Shown: piece after piece, positions 27,018 through 63,269 of the stretch
Layout of the letters: every line of letters starts with the position of its first letter
How positions within the stretch are numbered: the stretch's first letter is position 1
NCBI GenBank assembly: GCA_024638265.1
Contig: JAHEKQ010000003.1
Coordinates: forward strand, 1 to 64,000
Direction: 5' to 3'
DNA: 64,000 nt
Source: Flammeovirgaceae bacterium
GTDB taxonomy: Bacteria; Bacteroidota; Bacteroidia; Cytophagales; Cyclobacteriaceae
The notes under the pieces: model-generated
Told to the model about the DNA's origin: nothing
The model's input: the letters and a program-made list of their open reading frames with translations, nothing else
Databases searched by the model: none
Program-made: the position numbers and the translations under genes

Positions 27018-27073
27018 TTAACAATTTGTTCATATTTCGTTAACCTCGAACTGATGAAGGGCTGGTACTTTTG
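27018..27073 (+). promoter_or_regulatory. Pho-box-like direct repeats and -7 box upstream of the TonB receptor gene
   Basis: TTAACA (27018-27023), TTCATA (27029-27034) and TTAACC (27040-27045) repeat with an exact 11-bp period. Exactly 20 bp further lies TACTTTTG (27066-27073), a perfect TAnnTTTG -7 box. The last repeat occupies the place of a -33 element, the usual geometry of a class II activator site. Predicted start of transcription is about 27078. Confidence 0.65.
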
Positions 27074-55805: not shown

Positions 55806-57656
55806 TCAGTTATTCCCGTTTTCAGCCATTTGTAACCCGACGCTGGCATGGGTCAGAGGATGCATGGGAATAATAAAGATGTCGGGTTCCATATAGAGTA
55901 GTTCGGCCGCCTTCAACATACTTTGACAAATATTGGCTACTGTCGCACTGTCATTGAGCAAACTGCTGGCTTCATCACTCGTTACTTCACCTTCACGGAT
56001 CAGATTTTCCAGCACACCGTTGTAGAGCACATCGAATTCCTTAATCATGGCAGCATATTTTTTGAATTTCTTACTTCTTTTTTCAATGTGTTCAGCAATT
56101 AGTCTGGCCCTCTCCCCTTCTTCAAGGTCTTCCTCCAGGTTGGGCAATTGTGCCTTGAAAACCTGCCTCAGAACTTTAACTATTCTGAACCTGAATTTGT
56201 CGTACTCATCCCTCATGGCCTCTCGATTGGAATTCAGGTACTTACTTAGGTTGGGCTGAATCTCGTTGAGTTCTTTGATGGCTTCGACAATATACCGGTT
56301 TGATTCCTTTATGCGGTAAATGAGATCGATTTGCTTATGGTTGGCATTAATGGCCTGTGCTTTGGTGGCAAATTCAATGATTCCACTATAAATGGACTTT
56401 ATTTTTTCATGGTAAAGGCGTTCAACATCAGTGATTACTATATGATCGTACTTGGCGGCTTCAGGATCAATTTTCTTTCTTACCAATATTTCCGATTTCT
56501 TGTATCCGAGACCCCTGGAAAAGATTTCAAAGGCATGATCAAGGAGATGATGTGTTTCATTGATCAGTGCTGATATGGCGGAAGTAGGGTAATTCAAGGC
56601 TGACTTTGAGAGATATTTTGGTTCCGAAATCGGTATTTTTGGTGTAGGGAAAATTCGCTCAAGAATACGTACCATGACACCGATAAATGGCAGCATGATC
56701 AAGACCCCCATCACATTGAAAGTACTGTGGAAAAGTGCTAACCTGATCAAATAATTTGAACTGGGTACTTCAAGGAGATCACTAATCCAGTCAACTCCCC
56801 AACTGAGAGGATTGATCAATGCCAGGGCAAAAATTCCCGTGACCATATTAAAGGCAAAATGGGCTCCGGCGAGTTGTCGCCCCGTTGAATTGGAGGCTGC
56901 AGCGCCTATCACTGCGGTGATGGTAGTCCCGATATTAGCTCCTATAGATAAAGCCAGGGCATTAAAATAGGTAATTTGGGTTGCTGCAAGAGCGGTTAAT
57001 ATTATGGACATCGCTGCACTACTGGACTGAAGGATCACTGTGAGTAGAACACCAATCGCCGTATAAAGCAGTAATCCACCAAACCCCTCCATGCTGTATT
57101 GTGCGAGGTCAAACGTATCCTTAAAAGCATCAAACCCCACTTTCATATAATGAATTCCCAGGAAGAGGAATCCGATCCCTGCCAGGACATTACCCAACCC
57201 TTTTATGGAGCGGTTATTTTGGAAGATCAGAATAACCCCGATCACCAGCATAGGCATGGCAAAGGCTGATATATTTACTTTGAGGCCCAGGGTAGCCACC
57301 AGCCACGCGGTCGCGGTCGTTCCTACATTGGATCCAAAAATGATACCTATGCCAGCTTTTAATCCCAAAAGGCCTGCCCCAATGAATGAGATGGCAATTA
57401 CTGAAATCAGTGAAGAGGATTGCAAAATGGCTGTAGAGACCAGCCCGAGACTAAAACTTTTATAAAACTTGTTAGTTGCCCTTAATAAAATTCTCCTAAG
57501 CGGCCCCTCGGTGAAATTTTTGAATCCGTTCTCCAGCCCCATCATGCCGAAAAGAAGAATGGCCACACCGGCAGTGATCTCTTTAAATTCGGGACTGACG
57601 TAAATCAACACCCCTACCAGGATAATGAAGGATGGAAGGAATAGCTTTCTGATCAT
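55806..57656 (-). CDS. Na/Pi cotransporter family protein (with PhoU-like domain)
   Basis: 616 residues. NptA/PNaS family: two inverted membrane repeats with ILQSSSLISVIAISFIGAG and VILQSSSAAMSIILTALAA, each followed by NVGTT/NIGTT. The C-terminal about 270 residues are helical and PhoU-like (EILVRKKIDPEAAKYDHIV onward). It moves phosphate with sodium, in or out depending on gradients. It follows a related cotransporter gene by 54 bp. Confidence 0.9.
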   Translation of the reverse strand: MIRKLFLPSFIILVGVLIYVSPEFKEITAGVAILLFGMMGLENGFKNFTEGPLRRILLRATNKFYKSFSLGLVSTAILQSSSLISVIAISFIGAGLLGLKAGIGIIFGSNVGTTATAWLVATLGLKVNISAFAMPMLVIGVILIFQNNRSIKGLGNVLAGIGFLFLGIHYMKVGFDAFKDTFDLAQYSMEGFGGLLLYTAIGVLLTVILQSSSAAMSIILTALAATQITYFNALALSIGANIGTTITAVIGAAASNSTGRQLAGAHFAFNMVTGIFALALINPLSWGVDWISDLLEVPSSNYLIRLALFHSTFNVMGVLIMLPFIGVMVRILERIFPTPKIPISEPKYLSKSALNYPTSAISALINETHHLLDHAFEIFSRGLGYKKSEILVRKKIDPEAAKYDHIVITDVERLYHEKIKSIYSGIIEFATKAQAINANHKQIDLIYRIKESNRYIVEAIKELNEIQPNLSKYLNSNREAMRDEYDKFRFRIVKVLRQVFKAQLPNLEEDLEEGERARLIAEHIEKRSKKFKKYAAMIKEFDVLYNGVLENLIREGEVTSDEASSLLNDSATVANICQSMLKAAELLYMEPDIFIIPMHPLTHASVGLQMAENGNN

Positions 57657-57710
57657 AAATCAAGGTTGCCCCTGAAATTACAATAAAAAGCTTTTTTGCA
57701 AAATGAGAAT

Positions 57711-59396
57711 TTACTCTTCCTCGACTTCTTCTACGTCTTCTCGAAGCACTTCTGATACATTTTCAACGTGATCTCCTATTCGTTCAAATGAATTAAAAAG
57801 ATCTCGATAAATAATGCCTGCTTTGATATTATAACCAGGCTTTTCAATGCTTGAAAACTGCTCTTTTCGCAATTTTTTAACAAAAGAATTAATTTTTCTT
57901 TCAGCGTTTTCTACAGCATTCAAATCGGCACTGTAGTTATCAAGGTTAGTGATCATAATGTCTATGGCATCATCAACAAGCCCTGCAAGTTTATTCAGGT
58001 TGCTCCTTTGATCTTCGCTAAATACTATATCATGATCTTTTTTCCTGACAAGGTCGTTTGACATACGGTTATAAATATCAGCAATCCTCTCCAGGTCGGT
58101 AATAATGCTCGCCAATCCCTGTACTTCCCTTGAGCTCTTTTCAGAGAGTTTGGATTCAGAAACTCTCTGTAGAAATTGCGATATCTGCTCTTCAATATCA
58201 TCAGTGAGTGACTCCAACTTCTTTATTTTTTTATTGAGCTTCAGCACCTTCTTTTCTTTATCTGCATTACTCTGATCCATTAGCAGCTGCGATATCTTAG
58301 AAACTGTCTGGGAAAACATTACAACACTTCGCCTCGCCTCATCTATCGAAATGCTCGTAGTACCCACCACTCCCTTGTTTAAGTAGGTCAGCCAGTAGTC
58401 CTCTTCGTCATCCCCCCCCTTGGATTTTATGGTCCTTGTAGCAATTTGCACAAGTCTGTTTACAAACCCGATCAGTAACAAGACATTGAGGGTATTGAAT
58501 ATTGTGTGAAATGCTGCCAATGCAAATGTATTTCCACCATTATCAAGCTGGTTGGGGAAAATTAAGCTTATAAAATGTAGGAACACCGGGGCTAAAAAGA
58601 TCATCCATGTTACCCCGATAATATTGAACATGGAATGAATCCGTGCAGATCTCTTGGCATGTACATTGGCTACTAAGGAGGCTAGTTCTGCCGTGATGGT
58701 GGTTCCAATGTTTTCACCCAGTACCATAGCGGCTGCAATATCCAGCGGAAGTCCTTTCGCCACAAGGGCAATGGTCAAGGTCATGGCTGCACTACTGGAT
58801 TGCATGACTACGGTTATTAATGCCCCTATTAGGACAAACATCAACCTTGAGAGGATCCCGGGATCGCTGAATTGCTCAAGGAAGGCAAATACTGCTTCGT
58901 TTTCCCTAAGATCCGGTACAGCATCCTTCAATGCAGCCAGTCCCAGGAATAGCAGGGCAAATCCTATGATGGTCTCTCCCCATTTCTTCGCCTTTTGCCG
59001 GTCGGACAACATCAGAGGAAGCCCGATAGCAATAATGGGTAATGCAATACTGGATATTTTAACTTTAAATCCTATAATAGAAACCAACCACCCTGTGATG
59101 GTTGTACCTATGTTGGCACCCATCATAACCCCGGCCGATTCCGTAAGCGTGATCAAACCCGCATTTACAAAGCTTACGGTCATCACCGTGGTGGCAGATG
59201 AACTTTGGAGAATAGCCGTAATCATGAAACCGGTGGTAACGCCGGTGTAGCGGTTAGTGGTCATTGCACCGAGAACTTTCCGCAGTTTATTACCTGCTAC
59301 TTGTTGCAAGCCCTCGCTCATGGTCTTCATTCCAAAAAGGAAAAAGCCAAGTGCTCCTATTACCTGAAGGGAACCGATTATTACTTCCCACACCAT
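57711..59396 (-). CDS. Na/Pi cotransporter family protein (with PhoU-like domain)
   Basis: 561 residues, same family as its neighbour but not a recent copy. QSSSATTVMTVSFVNAGL with GANIGTT and QSSSAAMTLTIALVAKGL with GENIGTT mark the two repeats; a PhoU-like domain covers about residues 340-561 and ends in a Glu-rich tail. ATG 59396. It diverges from the OprP-family porin across 255 bp which contains the porin's 11-bp repeats. I see no similar repeat array pointing towards this gene. Confidence 0.9.
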   Translation of the reverse strand: MVWEVIIGSLQVIGALGFFLFGMKTMSEGLQQVAGNKLRKVLGAMTTNRYTGVTTGFMITAILQSSSATTVMTVSFVNAGLITLTESAGVMMGANIGTTITGWLVSIIGFKVKISSIALPIIAIGLPLMLSDRQKAKKWGETIIGFALLFLGLAALKDAVPDLRENEAVFAFLEQFSDPGILSRLMFVLIGALITVVMQSSSAAMTLTIALVAKGLPLDIAAAMVLGENIGTTITAELASLVANVHAKRSARIHSMFNIIGVTWMIFLAPVFLHFISLIFPNQLDNGGNTFALAAFHTIFNTLNVLLLIGFVNRLVQIATRTIKSKGGDDEEDYWLTYLNKGVVGTTSISIDEARRSVVMFSQTVSKISQLLMDQSNADKEKKVLKLNKKIKKLESLTDDIEEQISQFLQRVSESKLSEKSSREVQGLASIITDLERIADIYNRMSNDLVRKKDHDIVFSEDQRSNLNKLAGLVDDAIDIMITNLDNYSADLNAVENAERKINSFVKKLRKEQFSSIEKPGYNIKAGIIYRDLFNSFERIGDHVENVSEVLREDVEEVEEE

Positions 59397-59568
59397 AAGG
59401 TCACTGTTTGATTTGGGTTAAGCGTCTGACCCTAATATTGTCGAATCAGTAAAAGCGGTGGCAATTTCGCAAATTAAATTGTATTTGGGTAGGCCAATAC
59501 CCCCATCCAATATGGATGATATTATTCGCACGAAAATTTGGTTAAACAACATTGCTGAAGACAGGTTG

Positions 59569-59635
59569 ATAACATTCCGTTAACATATAAATAACAATAT
59601 GTTAAAATAACTCCAAGGAAAAAATAGCGTATTTG
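59569..59635 (+). promoter_or_regulatory. Pho-box-like direct repeats and -7-like element upstream of the OprP-family porin
   Basis: Four hexamers with an exact 11-bp period: ATAACA (59569), TTAACA (59580), ATAACA (59591) and TTAAAA (59602-59607). CGTATTTG (59628-59635), which keeps the TTTG of the -7 box, begins exactly 20 bp after the last repeat, the same distance as upstream of the TonB receptor gene. This is the longest and cleanest of the three arrays. Confidence 0.7.
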
Positions 59636-59651
59636 CGTAAAATTTAGACTC

Positions 59652-60836
59652 TTGAAACTTCTTTTCTTAATATTATCGACAGTATTTATCACCACTGCTT
59701 TTAGCCAGGATATCACTTCCAATAAATTCGGGAAGGGGATAAGCATACTTGCCAAGGATTCCTCCTTCTCCATGAAGGCTTCGGTTCGCTTTCAAACGCT
59801 TTATGAAGGTGTATATAACAGGGACAATAAAACCTGGGCAGATAAATTACTGATCAGAAGGTCAAGACTTAAGTTCGACGGCTATGCCTTTTCGCCCCGC
59901 CTCAAGTATAAAGTCGAGTTGGGTCTGAGTAACCGGGATCATGGAGGTGAAATCGATGAAACAAATAATACCTCCAACCTGGTGATGGATGCGGTAATTA
60001 TGTGGAATTTCGCCGGCAATTGGGAATTGTGGGCCGGGCAAACCAAGCTCCCCGGAAATCGTGAGCGTGTCATCTCGTCACAAAAGCTTCAGTTTGTAGA
60101 CCGGTCCCTGGTCAATTCAAGATTTAACATAGATCGAGATATCGGGATACAGTTGAGAAATAAATCAAGCATAGGGTCTGTGAAAGTAAATACTATGTTT
60201 TCCATAAGTATGGGAGAAGGAAGGAACATCACAGCGAATAATACGGGTGGCTACGATTATACGGCACGAGTCGAGTTTCTGCCGCTTGGCTCCTTTACCA
60301 GTAAAGGCGATTATTTTGGAAGTGACTTGTCAAGGGAGCCCTCTCCAAAATTATCTGTAGGGATAACGTATGACTACAATGACGGTGCTTCCCGACAACG
60401 GGGCCAATTGGGTAGTTATATTGAAGATATCTCCGGAACGAGAATCAACACGGACCTGAGTACAATTTTTGCCGATATTATGTTCAAGTACAAGGGTATT
60501 CAATACATGTCTGAATTTGCGGACAAGAATAATGTAAATGAGAATTTCGGTGCCTTGGGTGGAGGAAATTTTGCAGGCTTTTACTCGGGAACTGGGATGG
60601 CTCATCAACTGGGATACCTGTTTGCGAATAATTGGGAAATCGCTGGCCGCTATACCAGGATTAAGCCCGACGACATAAGTTATTCCAGCCTTCCGGATGA
60701 AACCGAATGGACGCTTGGTGTAAACAAGTATATTGTAGGACATAGCCTCAAAGTTCAGAGCGATTTTTCTGTGAGAGATAGGGTGGGCTCTTCTTCGGTT
60801 TTCCAGTTCCGGCTTCAAATGGAACTGAGCTTTTAA
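59652..60836 (+). CDS. OprP/OprO-family porin
   Basis: 394 residues with signal peptide (KLLFLILSTVFITTAFS). Matches the phosphate-selective porin O/P family: ASVRFQTLYEGVYNRDN, LLIRRSRLKFDGYAFSPRLKYK, and WAGQTKLPGNRERVISSQ, with an aromatic C-terminus (LQMELSF). Not all Bacteroidota members are phosphate-specific, but here Na/Pi cotransporters are divergent neighbours and a Pho-like array is upstream, which supports phosphate or polyphosphate passage. Start is TTG 59652; no in-frame ATG gives a full signal peptide. Confidence 0.88.
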   Translation: MKLLFLILSTVFITTAFSQDITSNKFGKGISILAKDSSFSMKASVRFQTLYEGVYNRDNKTWADKLLIRRSRLKFDGYAFSPRLKYKVELGLSNRDHGGEIDETNNTSNLVMDAVIMWNFAGNWELWAGQTKLPGNRERVISSQKLQFVDRSLVNSRFNIDRDIGIQLRNKSSIGSVKVNTMFSISMGEGRNITANNTGGYDYTARVEFLPLGSFTSKGDYFGSDLSREPSPKLSVGITYDYNDGASRQRGQLGSYIEDISGTRINTDLSTIFADIMFKYKGIQYMSEFADKNNVNENFGALGGGNFAGFYSGTGMAHQLGYLFANNWEIAGRYTRIKPDDISYSSLPDETEWTLGVNKYIVGHSLKVQSDFSVRDRVGSSSVFQFRLQMELSF

Positions 60837-60867
60837 CATTCCCTTTTCCGGCTCCACAATTTTCCCG

Positions 60868-60875
60868 TATCTTTG
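60868..60875 (+). promoter_or_regulatory. -7 promoter element (TATCTTTG) of the holin-X-like gene
   Basis: A perfect TAnnTTTG box 13 bp before the GTG start, between the porin stop and the three-gene run. No -33 TTG at standard spacing. Confidence 0.5.
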
Positions 60876-60888
60876 AAAAAAGGGTCAA

Positions 60889-61248
60889 GTGGAAAGCAAA
60901 CTCCTAAAATTTTTCAAACTGGACAACCTGTTTGATAGTATATCAGGTTACCTGGAAACCAGGCTGGAACTCTTCAAACTGGAGGCCAGGGAGGAAATAG
61001 CCGAGACAACCGCGAAGGGGATACAGGCTGTAATCATTATTTTGATGTTCCTTTTTGCCCTTATGTTCTTATCCATGGCATTGGCATTTTTTATTGGAAT
61101 GTGGCTTGACCAGGTCGGATATGGCTTTCTAATAGTGGGCGGTTTCTATGCCTTCCTGGCATTAACACTCTATTTGCTACGGGGCAGGATTGGACTTAAA
61201 GAGAAAATTAATCGTTATCTTGGAAGTAAGATTGCAGACGATGAGTGA
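60889..61248 (+). CDS. Holin-X-like (phage-holin family label) membrane protein
   Basis: 119 residues. An amphipathic N-terminus (SISGYLETRLELFKLEAREE) is followed by two membrane helices (about 45-70 and 80-102) and a basic/acidic tail. This matches the putative holin superfamily III / Actinobacterial Holin-X type, a chromosomal envelope protein that has nothing to do with phage here. GTG start; no ATG upstream. Its stop overlaps the next start (ATGAGTGA). Confidence 0.7.
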   Translation: MESKLLKFFKLDNLFDSISGYLETRLELFKLEAREEIAETTAKGIQAVIIILMFLFALMFLSMALAFFIGMWLDQVGYGFLIVGGFYAFLALTLYLLRGRIGLKEKINRYLGSKIADDE

Positions 61249-61663
61249 GATCAGCGAACAACTAAAAAAACAGCTTTCCATGGCTACCGAGGAGTATAAG
61301 GAAGATATCCAGGTAGCCCTTAAGGATGTAGCAAACCGGATGGGAAAAACGGGTATGAACGCCTTGATCATAACGGGTTCTCTCCTCATTTCATACCTGT
61401 TGTATCGGGGAATTGCCGGACCGAACAAGAAGAAGAAAAAGGAATTGGAAGATGGGGAGGAAGGAGCCGAATCAGGGTCTACTTACAACATGCTGGACCG
61501 CCTGGCCGACCAGGTATTGGAACAGACTTTAGTGTTCCTGCTTAACCTCGCCAAGGAACGACTTATTGCTTACTTAACAGAAATCAGTGAAGAACATGAG
61601 GATACTGAACCTGCTGCAGCAGAAGAGCAAAGCGCGGGAGAAATCCCTGGCAGTCTTAATTGA
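61241..61663 (+). CDS. Hypothetical protein with one membrane helix
   Basis: 140 residues from ATG 61241, which overlaps the upstream stop by 8 nt; the frame also extends to 61190. An amphipathic helix (SEISEQLKKQLSMATEEYKE), a membrane segment (about 38-56), a Lys/Glu-rich linker (KKKKKELEDGEEG), a second amphipathic part and an acidic tail. This gene regularly follows holin-X-like genes in relatives, as I recall, but no function is known to me. Confidence 0.65.
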   Translation: MSEISEQLKKQLSMATEEYKEDIQVALKDVANRMGKTGMNALIITGSLLISYLLYRGIAGPNKKKKKELEDGEEGAESGSTYNMLDRLADQVLEQTLVFLLNLAKERLIAYLTEISEEHEDTEPAAAEEQSAGEIPGSLN

Positions 61664-62357
61664 CCCGGATAAAGTCTCCGATGCCGAACAGGTTGTCAAA
61701 CTGGTAGAAGTTGCCAATGAGAACTACCTGGACTTTTTCTTTGTGGGGGGAAGCCTGATCACGGCACCCAACCTGTCGATGGTGATCCATACCATTAAAA
61801 AGAACACCTCAATACCCGTTATCCTGTTTCCGGGAAGTAATATGCACATCGACACGAGTGCTGATGCCATCCTGTTTCTATCACTCATTTCCGGTCGCAA
61901 CCCCGAACTGCTTATTGGCCAGCATGTCATAGCTGCACCGATAATCAGGAATAGTCAACTTGAAACGCTTCCCACCGGCTATATGTTGGTAAGTTCAGGA
62001 AAGTCTACCTCAGTTTCCTATATGAGTAATACAATACCGATACCGGCAGATAAGTATTCAATTGCGGCAAGTACTGCCATGGCTGGAGAAATGCTGGGAC
62101 TGAAGTTGATTTACATGGACGCCGGAAGTGGTGGAGTTCCCATCAGCAGCAAAATGATATCGAAAGTCCGACGATCTGTAAACGCTCCGCTTATCGTAGG
62201 GGGAGGAATCAGTACCGTCCAAAAAGCGGTGGATACACTCAATGCCGGCGCAGATACCATAGTCATTGGAAATGCCATTGAAGAAAATCCGGATCTTCTG
62301 ATTGAAGTCTCGGCGAAGATATACGACATAAATAAAGACAGGAAGGTTCAGGCCTGA
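61596..62357 (+). CDS. Geranylgeranylglyceryl/heptaprenylglyceryl phosphate synthase
   Basis: 253 residues from ATG 61596 (or GTG 61587). PcrB/GGGPS family TIM barrel: LAVLIDPDKVSD, FFVGGSLITAP, ILFPGSN, YMDAGSGG and VGGGISTVQKA (phosphate loop). It joins a polyprenyl chain to glycerol-1-phosphate by an ether bond, a typical archaeal step known also from Bacteroidota, where the lipid product is unclear. It overlaps the upstream gene by about 70 bp. The stop abuts the stop of the convergent AraC gene. Confidence 0.9.
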   Translation: MRILNLLQQKSKAREKSLAVLIDPDKVSDAEQVVKLVEVANENYLDFFFVGGSLITAPNLSMVIHTIKKNTSIPVILFPGSNMHIDTSADAILFLSLISGRNPELLIGQHVIAAPIIRNSQLETLPTGYMLVSSGKSTSVSYMSNTIPIPADKYSIAASTAMAGEMLGLKLIYMDAGSGGVPISSKMISKVRRSVNAPLIVGGGISTVQKAVDTLNAGADTIVIGNAIEENPDLLIEVSAKIYDINKDRKVQA

Positions 62358-63269
62358 TCAGACATTAATCAGAGTTTCCCGTTTTCTCATTTTACCTGCA
62401 GGTATACCGTACATCATTTTGAACCGTCGGCAGAAATAGGCCGTGTCCTTATAGCCACAGGATTTGCCCACATCCCGAATGCTCATCTTAGTGGTTCGTA
62501 ACAGTTCCACTGCATGTTCCATTCTTTTGTATTCAATATAATCCTGAGGATTGATCCCCGTTAAGGCCTTGAAGTACTGGCCTACATAATCCTCACTGAC
62601 CCCGGCAATTTCCGCAAGTTTTTTATTGGTCAGTTCCCTACTTATATTTTCTTTAATATGCTTGAAAAGACTTATAAGTCGGGGATCCTTGAAATAGGTG
62701 GCATTGGTGACCATCTTTTCTACAAATAGGTTATTGCTGAGGATATATCGAACCACTTCAATAACAATGTGCTCCGTTTTAATGGAAATCACCCGCTGAA
62801 AACCCTCTCTCCGGTCCGATTGTTCGCGGGTTATATCGTAAATAAGACCGTTGAGAATGGGGTGGTCCAGGGCAAAGGCGGGAATTTCCAGGGTGTTGAA
62901 AAAACTGACCGTATCGAAGATAGTGGTTTCAAAACTCACCAGGGTCAATTCAGCCTTAGCGCTTCCCCCCAGGTCCTCGCGGAAGAATTCGTTCCTCTTG
63001 AACCGGAATTCTTCCAGGTTCATGACAGTAGGACTGGCCAAATCCCCGAAATTGATTTTGGTAGGCTTTGAATCCGGGATCAATACGGCCTGCCCCTCCT
63101 TAACCTCGTGGTCGTCAATGGATAGTTTCCCCTTTTTTAAAAAGATGAGAAGGTTTTCGGGTTCCTGGAAATCATCGACTTGCAGGTTATCGATCACGTC
63201 AACATTGCGACAGGCAATGAACCGGATACTTAGCGATTCGATTACCTTATTGTAGTTTTCTGTTGACAT
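62358..63269 (-). CDS. AraC-family transcriptional regulator
   Basis: 303 residues. The C-terminal about 100 residues carry the two helix-turn-helix motifs (NKKLAEIAGVSEDYVGQYFK and MSIRDVGKSCGYKDTAYFCR) with the family end motif GIPAGKMRKRE. The N-terminal part (about 1-190) is a sensing domain without clear assignment; an early ILIFLKKGKLSIDD stretch recalls cupins. Target unknown; neighbouring genes are GGGPS and acyl-CoA dehydrogenase. Confidence 0.88.
   Translation of the reverse strand: MSTENYNKVIESLSIRFIACRNVDVIDNLQVDDFQEPENLLIFLKKGKLSIDDHEVKEGQAVLIPDSKPTKINFGDLASPTVMNLEEFRFKRNEFFREDLGGSAKAELTLVSFETTIFDTVSFFNTLEIPAFALDHPILNGLIYDITREQSDRREGFQRVISIKTEHIVIEVVRYILSNNLFVEKMVTNATYFKDPRLISLFKHIKENISRELTNKKLAEIAGVSEDYVGQYFKALTGINPQDYIEYKRMEHAVELLRTTKMSIRDVGKSCGYKDTAYFCRRFKMMYGIPAGKMRKRETLINV

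Follow-up and report, generated by a model that had tools for sequence, protein, structure and literature searches.

The window, by which we mean the whole 64-kb stretch of DNA that was analysed, carries an array of four hexamers at 11-bp intervals between a Porin_O_P gene and a divergent Na/Pi cotransporter gene. This raises the question whether the array is the operator of a phosphate regulator, and how such an operator would act on the promoters of Bacteroidota, which are unusual in having TTTG at -7 and a -33 element. In Bacillus subtilis the PhoP box is built of TTAACA-like repeats about 11 bp apart. The features of the locus are as follows.

59569..59574, plus strand: half-site 1, ATAACA, read directly; units 1-3 were also scored with a matrix
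59580..59585, plus strand: half-site 2, TTAACA, an 11-bp step from half-site 1
59591..59596, plus strand: half-site 3, ATAACA, an 11-bp step; 35 bp from its end to the TTTG
59602..59607, plus strand: half-site 4, TTAAAA, an 11-bp step, at the -33 position; 24 bp from its end to the TTTG
59628..59635, plus strand: CGTATTTG, a weak -7-like element with the TTTG at 59632-59635, at the lattice position found in pstS promoters
59652..60836, plus strand: Porin_O_P outer-membrane porin with a TTG start, the presumed target gene (PF07396, E 1.5e-14)
57711..59396, minus strand: Na/Pi cotransporter with a PhoU domain, divergent from the porin and a possible second target (PF02690, PF01895; TIGR00704 above cut-off)
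55806..57656, minus strand: second Na/Pi cotransporter, downstream of the first on the same strand (Pfam)

The first-pass annotation had described ATAACA, TTAACA, ATAACA and TTAAAA at exact 11-bp steps, followed by a gap of 20 bp between the end of TTAAAA (59607) and CGTATTTG. Both the hexamers and the gap are present in the sequence as placed. CGTATTTG is called -7-like by comparison with TAnnTTTG, which we take to be the consensus. When the 255-bp intergenic region was subjected to dinucleotide shuffling, none of 20,000 shuffles contained four WTAAMA units separated by one fixed spacer of 0-9 bp, and three such units gave 18 strand-wise matches per 20,000. None of 5,000 shuffles of the intergenic region reached the real array in matrix score. 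Neither strand of the 64-kb window has a second site at which three WTAAMA units are evenly spaced by 0-9 bp, and an Rfam search of window positions 57500-61000 yielded no matches up to E 0.5. A weaker three-unit array (18.2 bits) was seen at 27018-27050, directly upstream of an ORF at 27054 that, judged by eye, looks like a CarboxypepD/TonB-type outer-membrane protein.

The own genome (3.63 Mb) was searched with strict patterns. Three WTAAMA units at 11 bp, one mismatch allowed, were found in 4 places, 2 of them the window array, against 4 for the reversed pattern; three TTAACA units at 11 bp with at most two mismatches gave 3 places, again with 2 in the window array, against 0 reversed. These counts were rejected as evidence for a regulon, with the window array as the sole one standing out.

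The conservation of the repeats was examined upstream of orthologous porins, the check that had been proposed for the array, and 11-bp pairs were found in excess over shuffles. For this purpose TTAACA-like hexamers with at most one mismatch were counted after removal of the window and of the training arrays of G058 and G074. The 27 family porin orthologue regions contained 23 pairs at 11 bp, compared with 1.7 in shuffles. The 37 named porin loci, mostly from Flavobacteriia, contained 22 compared with 2.9, counts that are inflated by kinship among these loci. Pairs at 22 bp were also enriched, with 9 against 1.3 in the 27 family regions and 18 against 3.2 in the 37 named loci, and in the family porin regions distances of 19 and 31 bp lay slightly above the shuffles as well (7 each). 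An array with a score of at least 9 was absent from 13 of 29 family porin regions.

At the level of whole genomes, three TTAACA units at 11 bp, one mismatch allowed, occurred at 98 placements, overlapping ones included, in 70 of the 196 family genomes, against 15 for the reversed pattern. When the step was changed to 12 bp, 15 placements and 21 reversed ones were obtained. Among 148 genomes of the phylum, the 11-bp pattern gave 55 placements in 34 genomes and 10 reversed. The strict three-unit pattern in 21 named genomes (mostly Flavobacteriaceae, L057 excluded) gave 5 sites against 1 in the control and was dropped as too few; the named Flavobacteriaceae genomes carry looser boxes.

We think it highly improbable that the array arose by chance or serves as a bending or UP-like AT-rich element, with no dedicated protein to bind it. 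The array region is indeed AT-rich (34.5% GC) and 11 bp makes one helical turn, as such an element would have it, but neither 12-bp arrays nor reversed patterns, alike in composition, showed enrichment, shuffling failed to yield the array, the orthologues keep the spacing, and a lattice of TTTG positions is common to these porins and pstS. The direct repeats with an 11-bp period that mark a Pho box are present in the window array, which, judged from the sequence, is very probably a real and conserved Pho-type operator with a well-defined architecture.

Part of this architecture is the distance between the box and the -7 TTTG, taken in forward arrays with a score of at least 9 as the gap that separates the three-unit core (28 bp) from the first base of the TTTG. 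Of 40 such regions of porin and pstS genes, the window included, 31 had a TTTG 13, 24 or 35 bp past the core; all remaining offsets from 0 to 45 bp in the same regions held 10 TTTG in total. The named porins had the TTTG at 13 (n=20), 24 (n=3) or 35 bp (n=1), and two family porins had it at 35 bp, one being the window. For pstS the offset was 35 bp in 5 of the 7 regions with an array and 36 bp in one; these 7 come from 12 regions, five being excluded as cut off or devoid of an array. The porin set was taken without L032 and L077, where the arrays are far from the gene. In the window the TTTG follows the three-unit core at an offset of 35 bp and the fourth unit at 24 bp. Between 59600 and 59618, where the window promoter would have its -33 element, no TTG was found; the fourth unit stands there, as had been proposed. 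A further mark of a Pho box, a constant position ahead of the promoter core where a -35/-33 element would otherwise be, was found as well.

Among the family porin arrays, 9 of 16 were in the TGTTAA orientation and lay off the forward lattice. Reversed arrays of the named porins had the TTTG at 42 (three cases), 20 (two cases) and 31 bp (one case), again in 11-bp steps but displaced from the forward lattice by roughly half a turn; single cases were seen at 2 and 32 bp.

The geometry also bears on the direction of the control. A repressor that occupies the -33 region and silences the porin promoter before a signal arrives would suit those arrays that end 0-30 bp ahead of the start codon, and it would suit the 8-fold rise of pstS mRNA in a Riemerella phoPR mutant given in the excerpts of PMC5399024. 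We consider this rather unlikely, since the absent -33 TTG and the weak -7 element argue for dependence on an activator and the 13/24/35-bp placement resembles a contact to the polymerase. It is also at odds with Bacteroides fragilis, where, in the sections of PMC3547664 at hand, the deletion of phoB brought the expression of pstC at low phosphate down to a trace. The earlier claim that the porin is under a Pho-type activator held in part: a conserved OmpR/PhoB-type box common to pstS, pstC, response regulator and porin genes is there, whereas a simple activator is spoken against by the rise of pstS in Riemerella and by a Flavobacterium johnsoniae gene annotated OprP, a name that does not imply orthology to the window porin, which was not induced by phosphate depletion in the excerpts of PMC8115612.

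The genes that carry the box were then sought with a matrix trained on 72 sites, from which porin, response regulator and metallophosphoesterase sites were left out. A score of at least 12 was reached upstream of 10 of 26 family porins and 28 of 37 named ones, 5 of 12 pstS genes (one of the 7 failing regions is cut by a contig end) and 12 of 26 response regulator genes, or 18 of 41 with a looser selection. Upstream of other genes of the named loci it was reached in 11 of 95, a control that comes from the named loci only and is unmatched to the family sets. The control genes are not clean partly because arrays also stand before a small divergent secreted gene. When the spacing in the matrix was set to 8-10 or 12-14 bp, just 0-3 regions per set scored 12 or more. 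The search for the repeat in front of the pst and porin genes of relatives, a second check that had been proposed, gave the box at part of the pstS genes (the 5 of 12 above), at pstC and at porins. The same element before pst and the regulator gene, which also characterises a Pho box, was found in part of the relatives. The small divergent protein just mentioned is secreted and about 105-130 aa long; its gene has an array to itself, in most cases 30-75 bp ahead of the start (loci L042-L045, L047-L051, L054-L060, L071, L073, L075 and L078).

As the target of a strict-pattern site we took the nearest ORF that points away from the site and starts no more than 450 bp from it; by this rule a target on both sides was found for 33 of 94 rows, and none for 4. 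The 94 rows correspond to 89 distinct places, as two rows of L084 recur at L113, L108 recurs as L170, and L098 and L135 each appear once per strand. Pfam was run on 101 of 117 flanking proteins, and the targets named here are among the families listed (25 of 61). The commonest target, at 27 of the 89 places, was no phosphate gene but one for a secreted protein, about 260-310 aa long, in which C, H and E form an invariant pattern that we liken to that of transglutaminases; the six of these proteins that were shown singly had no Pfam match. Its gene is often divergent from an aldehyde dehydrogenase gene (L081-L165, e.g. L098:689-1468, L140, L146). A PhoB-like response regulator was flanked by the array at 5 of the 89 places and DUF2490 proteins at 4. 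Porin_O_P genes were flanked by 6 arrays in 5 genomes, one array being common to a divergent Na/Pi cotransporter, and FecR and TonB-receptor genes were likewise among the targets.

Genomes from other families of the phylum have the pattern upstream of two Porin_O_P genes, one BBP2 porin gene and two PstC genes, with Porin_O_P and PstC above cut-off, and a PstS gene lies 366 bp from one further site. At these loci (L268-L302), 10 of 48 flanking proteins were picked by eye for Pfam and 7 of 48 for NCBIfam, 4 of them for both. Five of the ten were Porin_O_P, PstS or permeases later named PstC, and five were otherwise; four of the ten were a Porin_5, two CarboxypepD/TonB-type proteins and one without a match. 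We also scored pstS loci of the phylum that were chosen independently of the pattern, the best 30 of a longer list. A score of at least 12 was found in 3 of 3 loci of family f21 and in the single locus of f10 (TTTG at 24 bp), but in none of 20 loci of f15 (best 11.8), none of 4 of f11, and not in the single loci of f6 (8.1) and f23. The box is therefore not universal in the phylum.

A purple acid phosphatase was rejected as a target of the box. The secreted 311-330 aa proteins at L334, L335 and L336 (genomes G154, G070 and G175), which stand behind arrays of 4-5 units, contain only the N-terminal PF16656, two above cut-off and one slightly below, and no catalytic domain was found in them. Metallophosphoesterases of the LpxH type, or presumably PlcP, at L115 and L157 are weakly supported as targets, as the LpxH models remained below cut-off; at L157 no array was found within 260 bp of the start.

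The neighbourhoods of the boxes were compared between genomes. In G051 a single contig carries, in this order, a Na/Pi cotransporter gene, an array, a pst operon, another Na/Pi cotransporter gene and the porin gene; PstS and PstC of this operon were named by models, and pstA, pstB and phoU by look and order. In G083 the porin, an array, a response regulator, a glycosyltransferase, a metallophosphoesterase, a second array and pstS lie within 8 kb. A porin relative and pstC share a contig in G015, G083 and G068 as well. The Na/Pi cotransporter gene is divergent from and adjacent to the porin gene in relatives too, for example at L061, L069, L076 and L265. The PcrB and AraC genes located 3' of the porin in the window were seen 3' of a pst operon in G079, and L264:8231-10500 compared with window 60889-63269 looks as if porin/NaPi and pst had been swapped at one locus.

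These targets can also be read in another way. The box may belong to a PhoP/ArcA-like response regulator with a broad regulon for the envelope, redox or aerotolerance, in which the phosphate genes are only some of the targets. We regard this as possible but doubtful. It draws on the excerpts of PMC9603813, where DAP-seq of the Riemerella anatipestifer PhoP gave the motif TTTAACA with 583 peaks, the motif was found similar to that of the E. coli ArcA, and the regulon was interpreted as aerotolerance. The strict-pattern targets point the same way, headed by the transglutaminase-like protein and with DUF2490, FecR and TonB-receptor genes among them. However, box and lattice are common to pst, porin and Na/Pi genes and the box is commoner there than in the control genes, and the contigs that bear it hold porin and pst genes together. 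In E. coli, the ArcA box consists of TGTTAA-type repeats. TGTTAA is the reverse complement of TTAACA, but the regulon differs.

A Pho-type operator, the reading that we prefer, was set beside the known phosphate boxes. With the PhoP box of Bacillus subtilis the array shares the half-site word, the 11-bp period and several tandem half-sites upstream of the promoter core; it differs in that it occurs in another phylum, keeps a fixed distance of 13, 24 or 35 bp to the -7 TTTG and is connected with Porin_O_P and Na/Pi genes. The E. coli PhoB Pho box has two 11-nt direct repeats, CTGTCAT, according to the excerpts of PMC4415409. Like the window array, it is built of tandem 11-nt direct repeats, and it is bound by an OmpR-family regulator and involved in pst control, but the window array has four units instead of two, and direct reading showed that the CTGTCAT-type half-site is absent from it. 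The Riemerella PhoP motif is alike in its core word, in the phylum and in an autoregulatory site at a nearly equal distance from the regulator gene. It is unlike in that the main text of PMC9603813 never uses the term direct repeat, the sections at hand report no 11-bp tandem structure, promoter lattice or phosphate theme, and the first T of TTTAACA is not conserved in the sites described here. In Bacteroides fragilis, also a member of the Bacteroidota, a PhoB-type regulator binds a pst promoter; the site is unmapped in the excerpts of PMC3547664, whose main text contains none of the words consensus, motif and repeat.

The remark that the Bacteroidota Pho box is poorly described was accurate only in part, as the Riemerella motif was published in 2022 (PMC9603813, seen in excerpts). 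No Bacteroidota phosphate operator with a defined architecture was found in the excerpts of the open-licence PMC literature. Phosphate control in this phylum is described there in terms of regulators and regulons, and an operator architecture is not defined. A box on a fixed lattice would make phosphate genes predictable from the sequence in Cytophagales and Flavobacteriia, would allow the interplay of a response regulator with this unusual type of promoter to be tested directly, and would connect the Riemerella PhoP motif with phosphate genes.

For the protein that binds the array, the own genome was searched with the Bacteroides PhoB model. Among 23 matches two span the whole model, and the better one, on contig C108, scored 211.9 compared with 159 bits, where the cut-off of the model is 270. 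This regulator (G000:C108:47037-47708) had TIGR02154 (PhoB) as its top-scoring NCBIfam model, with 230.1 bits and hence below the cut-off of 296.2, and it reached 212.4 bits with NF053854, below the cut-off of 270. A kinase gene overlaps its end; the nearest models of the kinase are PnpS and PhoR, both below cut-off. Orthologues of the regulator with E <= 1e-70 were found in 85 of 88 family genomes. When response regulator genes were preceded by arrays with a score of at least 12, these lay at -160..-111 from the start codon in 12 of 18 cases. The excerpts of PMC9603813 describe gel-shift binding of the Riemerella PhoP to 35 nt in front of its own operon, from -156 to -121, and those of PMC3547664 a gel shift of the B. 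fragilis PhoB with the pstC promoter, in which the site is unmapped. In the upstream region of the own regulator gene the best array scored 9.2 and was in reversed orientation. We infer that the PhoB-like C108 regulator is the most likely array-binding protein.

With good confidence we propose from the sequence comparisons that the window array is a Pho-type operator for a PhoB/PhoP-type regulator, under which the porin would probably rise at low phosphate. In this mechanism, a regulator of the OmpR family would bind the four direct half-sites head to tail, one helical turn apart and all on one face of the DNA. As the lattice ends 24 bp before the -7 TTTG, the last half-site would stand in for the absent -33 element, and RNA polymerase would be recruited by the regulator once bound. 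The likely physiological use would be the production of more Porin_O_P when phosphate is low.

The window porin itself matched PF07396 with 54.5 bits, above the Pfam gathering cut-off of 20.9, and relatives with E <= 1e-20 were found in 71 of 118 family genomes. In the own genome, whose assembly is 97.6% complete, neither PstC over cut-off nor a TIGR02136-type PstS was found, a search in which a TIGR00975-type PstS was outside the scope. By these PstC and TIGR02136 PstS models the genome seems to be without Pst, and therefore the porin and the Na/Pi cotransporters may be its main route for phosphate.

In Flavobacteriaceae a second transcript might be connected with the box. Upstream of the porin's own box, 25 loci contain a GTTTTTGTC core, within which AGTTTTTGTC is invariant in the 24 aligned loci. 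The core was followed by a T run ending within 65 nt in 24 of the 25 loci, with a terminator-like hairpin ahead of the T run. The candidate has the following positions.

L042-L052, L054-L060, L065, L071-L075, L078; e.g. L049:4801-4909: candidate sRNA with core, terminator hairpin and array

In 19 of 25 loci a TTTG stands 24 bp past the best array upstream of the core, and in 2 further loci the distance is 35 bp; these offsets are raw counts without a shuffle control, and only 7 of the arrays score at least 12. Six loci were searched against Rfam and had no match, and a search of the window with a model of the sRNA gave nothing significant (sole match E 0.6). The sequences suggest a candidate sRNA that is driven by the box and antisense to the porin leader in Flavobacteriaceae. 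We hold it about as likely as not that parts of the Bacteroidota have a Pho box peculiar to them, in which TTAACA-like half-sites recur every 11 bp, keep the -7 TTTG at an offset of 13, 24 or 35 bp and work with no -33 element, and that in Flavobacteriaceae this box also drives an sRNA whose AGTTTTTGTC core pairs with the leader of the neighbouring Porin_O_P mRNA directly ahead of the start codon. If this is true, a single regulator would control both the porin and the antisense brake of the porin. In 22 of 25 comparisons the core can form an uninterrupted stretch of 12 or more pairs, G-U included, with the porin leader just 5' of the start codon; of the three others, L057 and L071 were mis-anchored and L048 has an inserted base. 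Covariation of core and leader was observed in L065 and L072, where both strands change jointly. Within the alignment, 6 of 12 predicted pairs were changed on both sides, all of them in the terminator stem.
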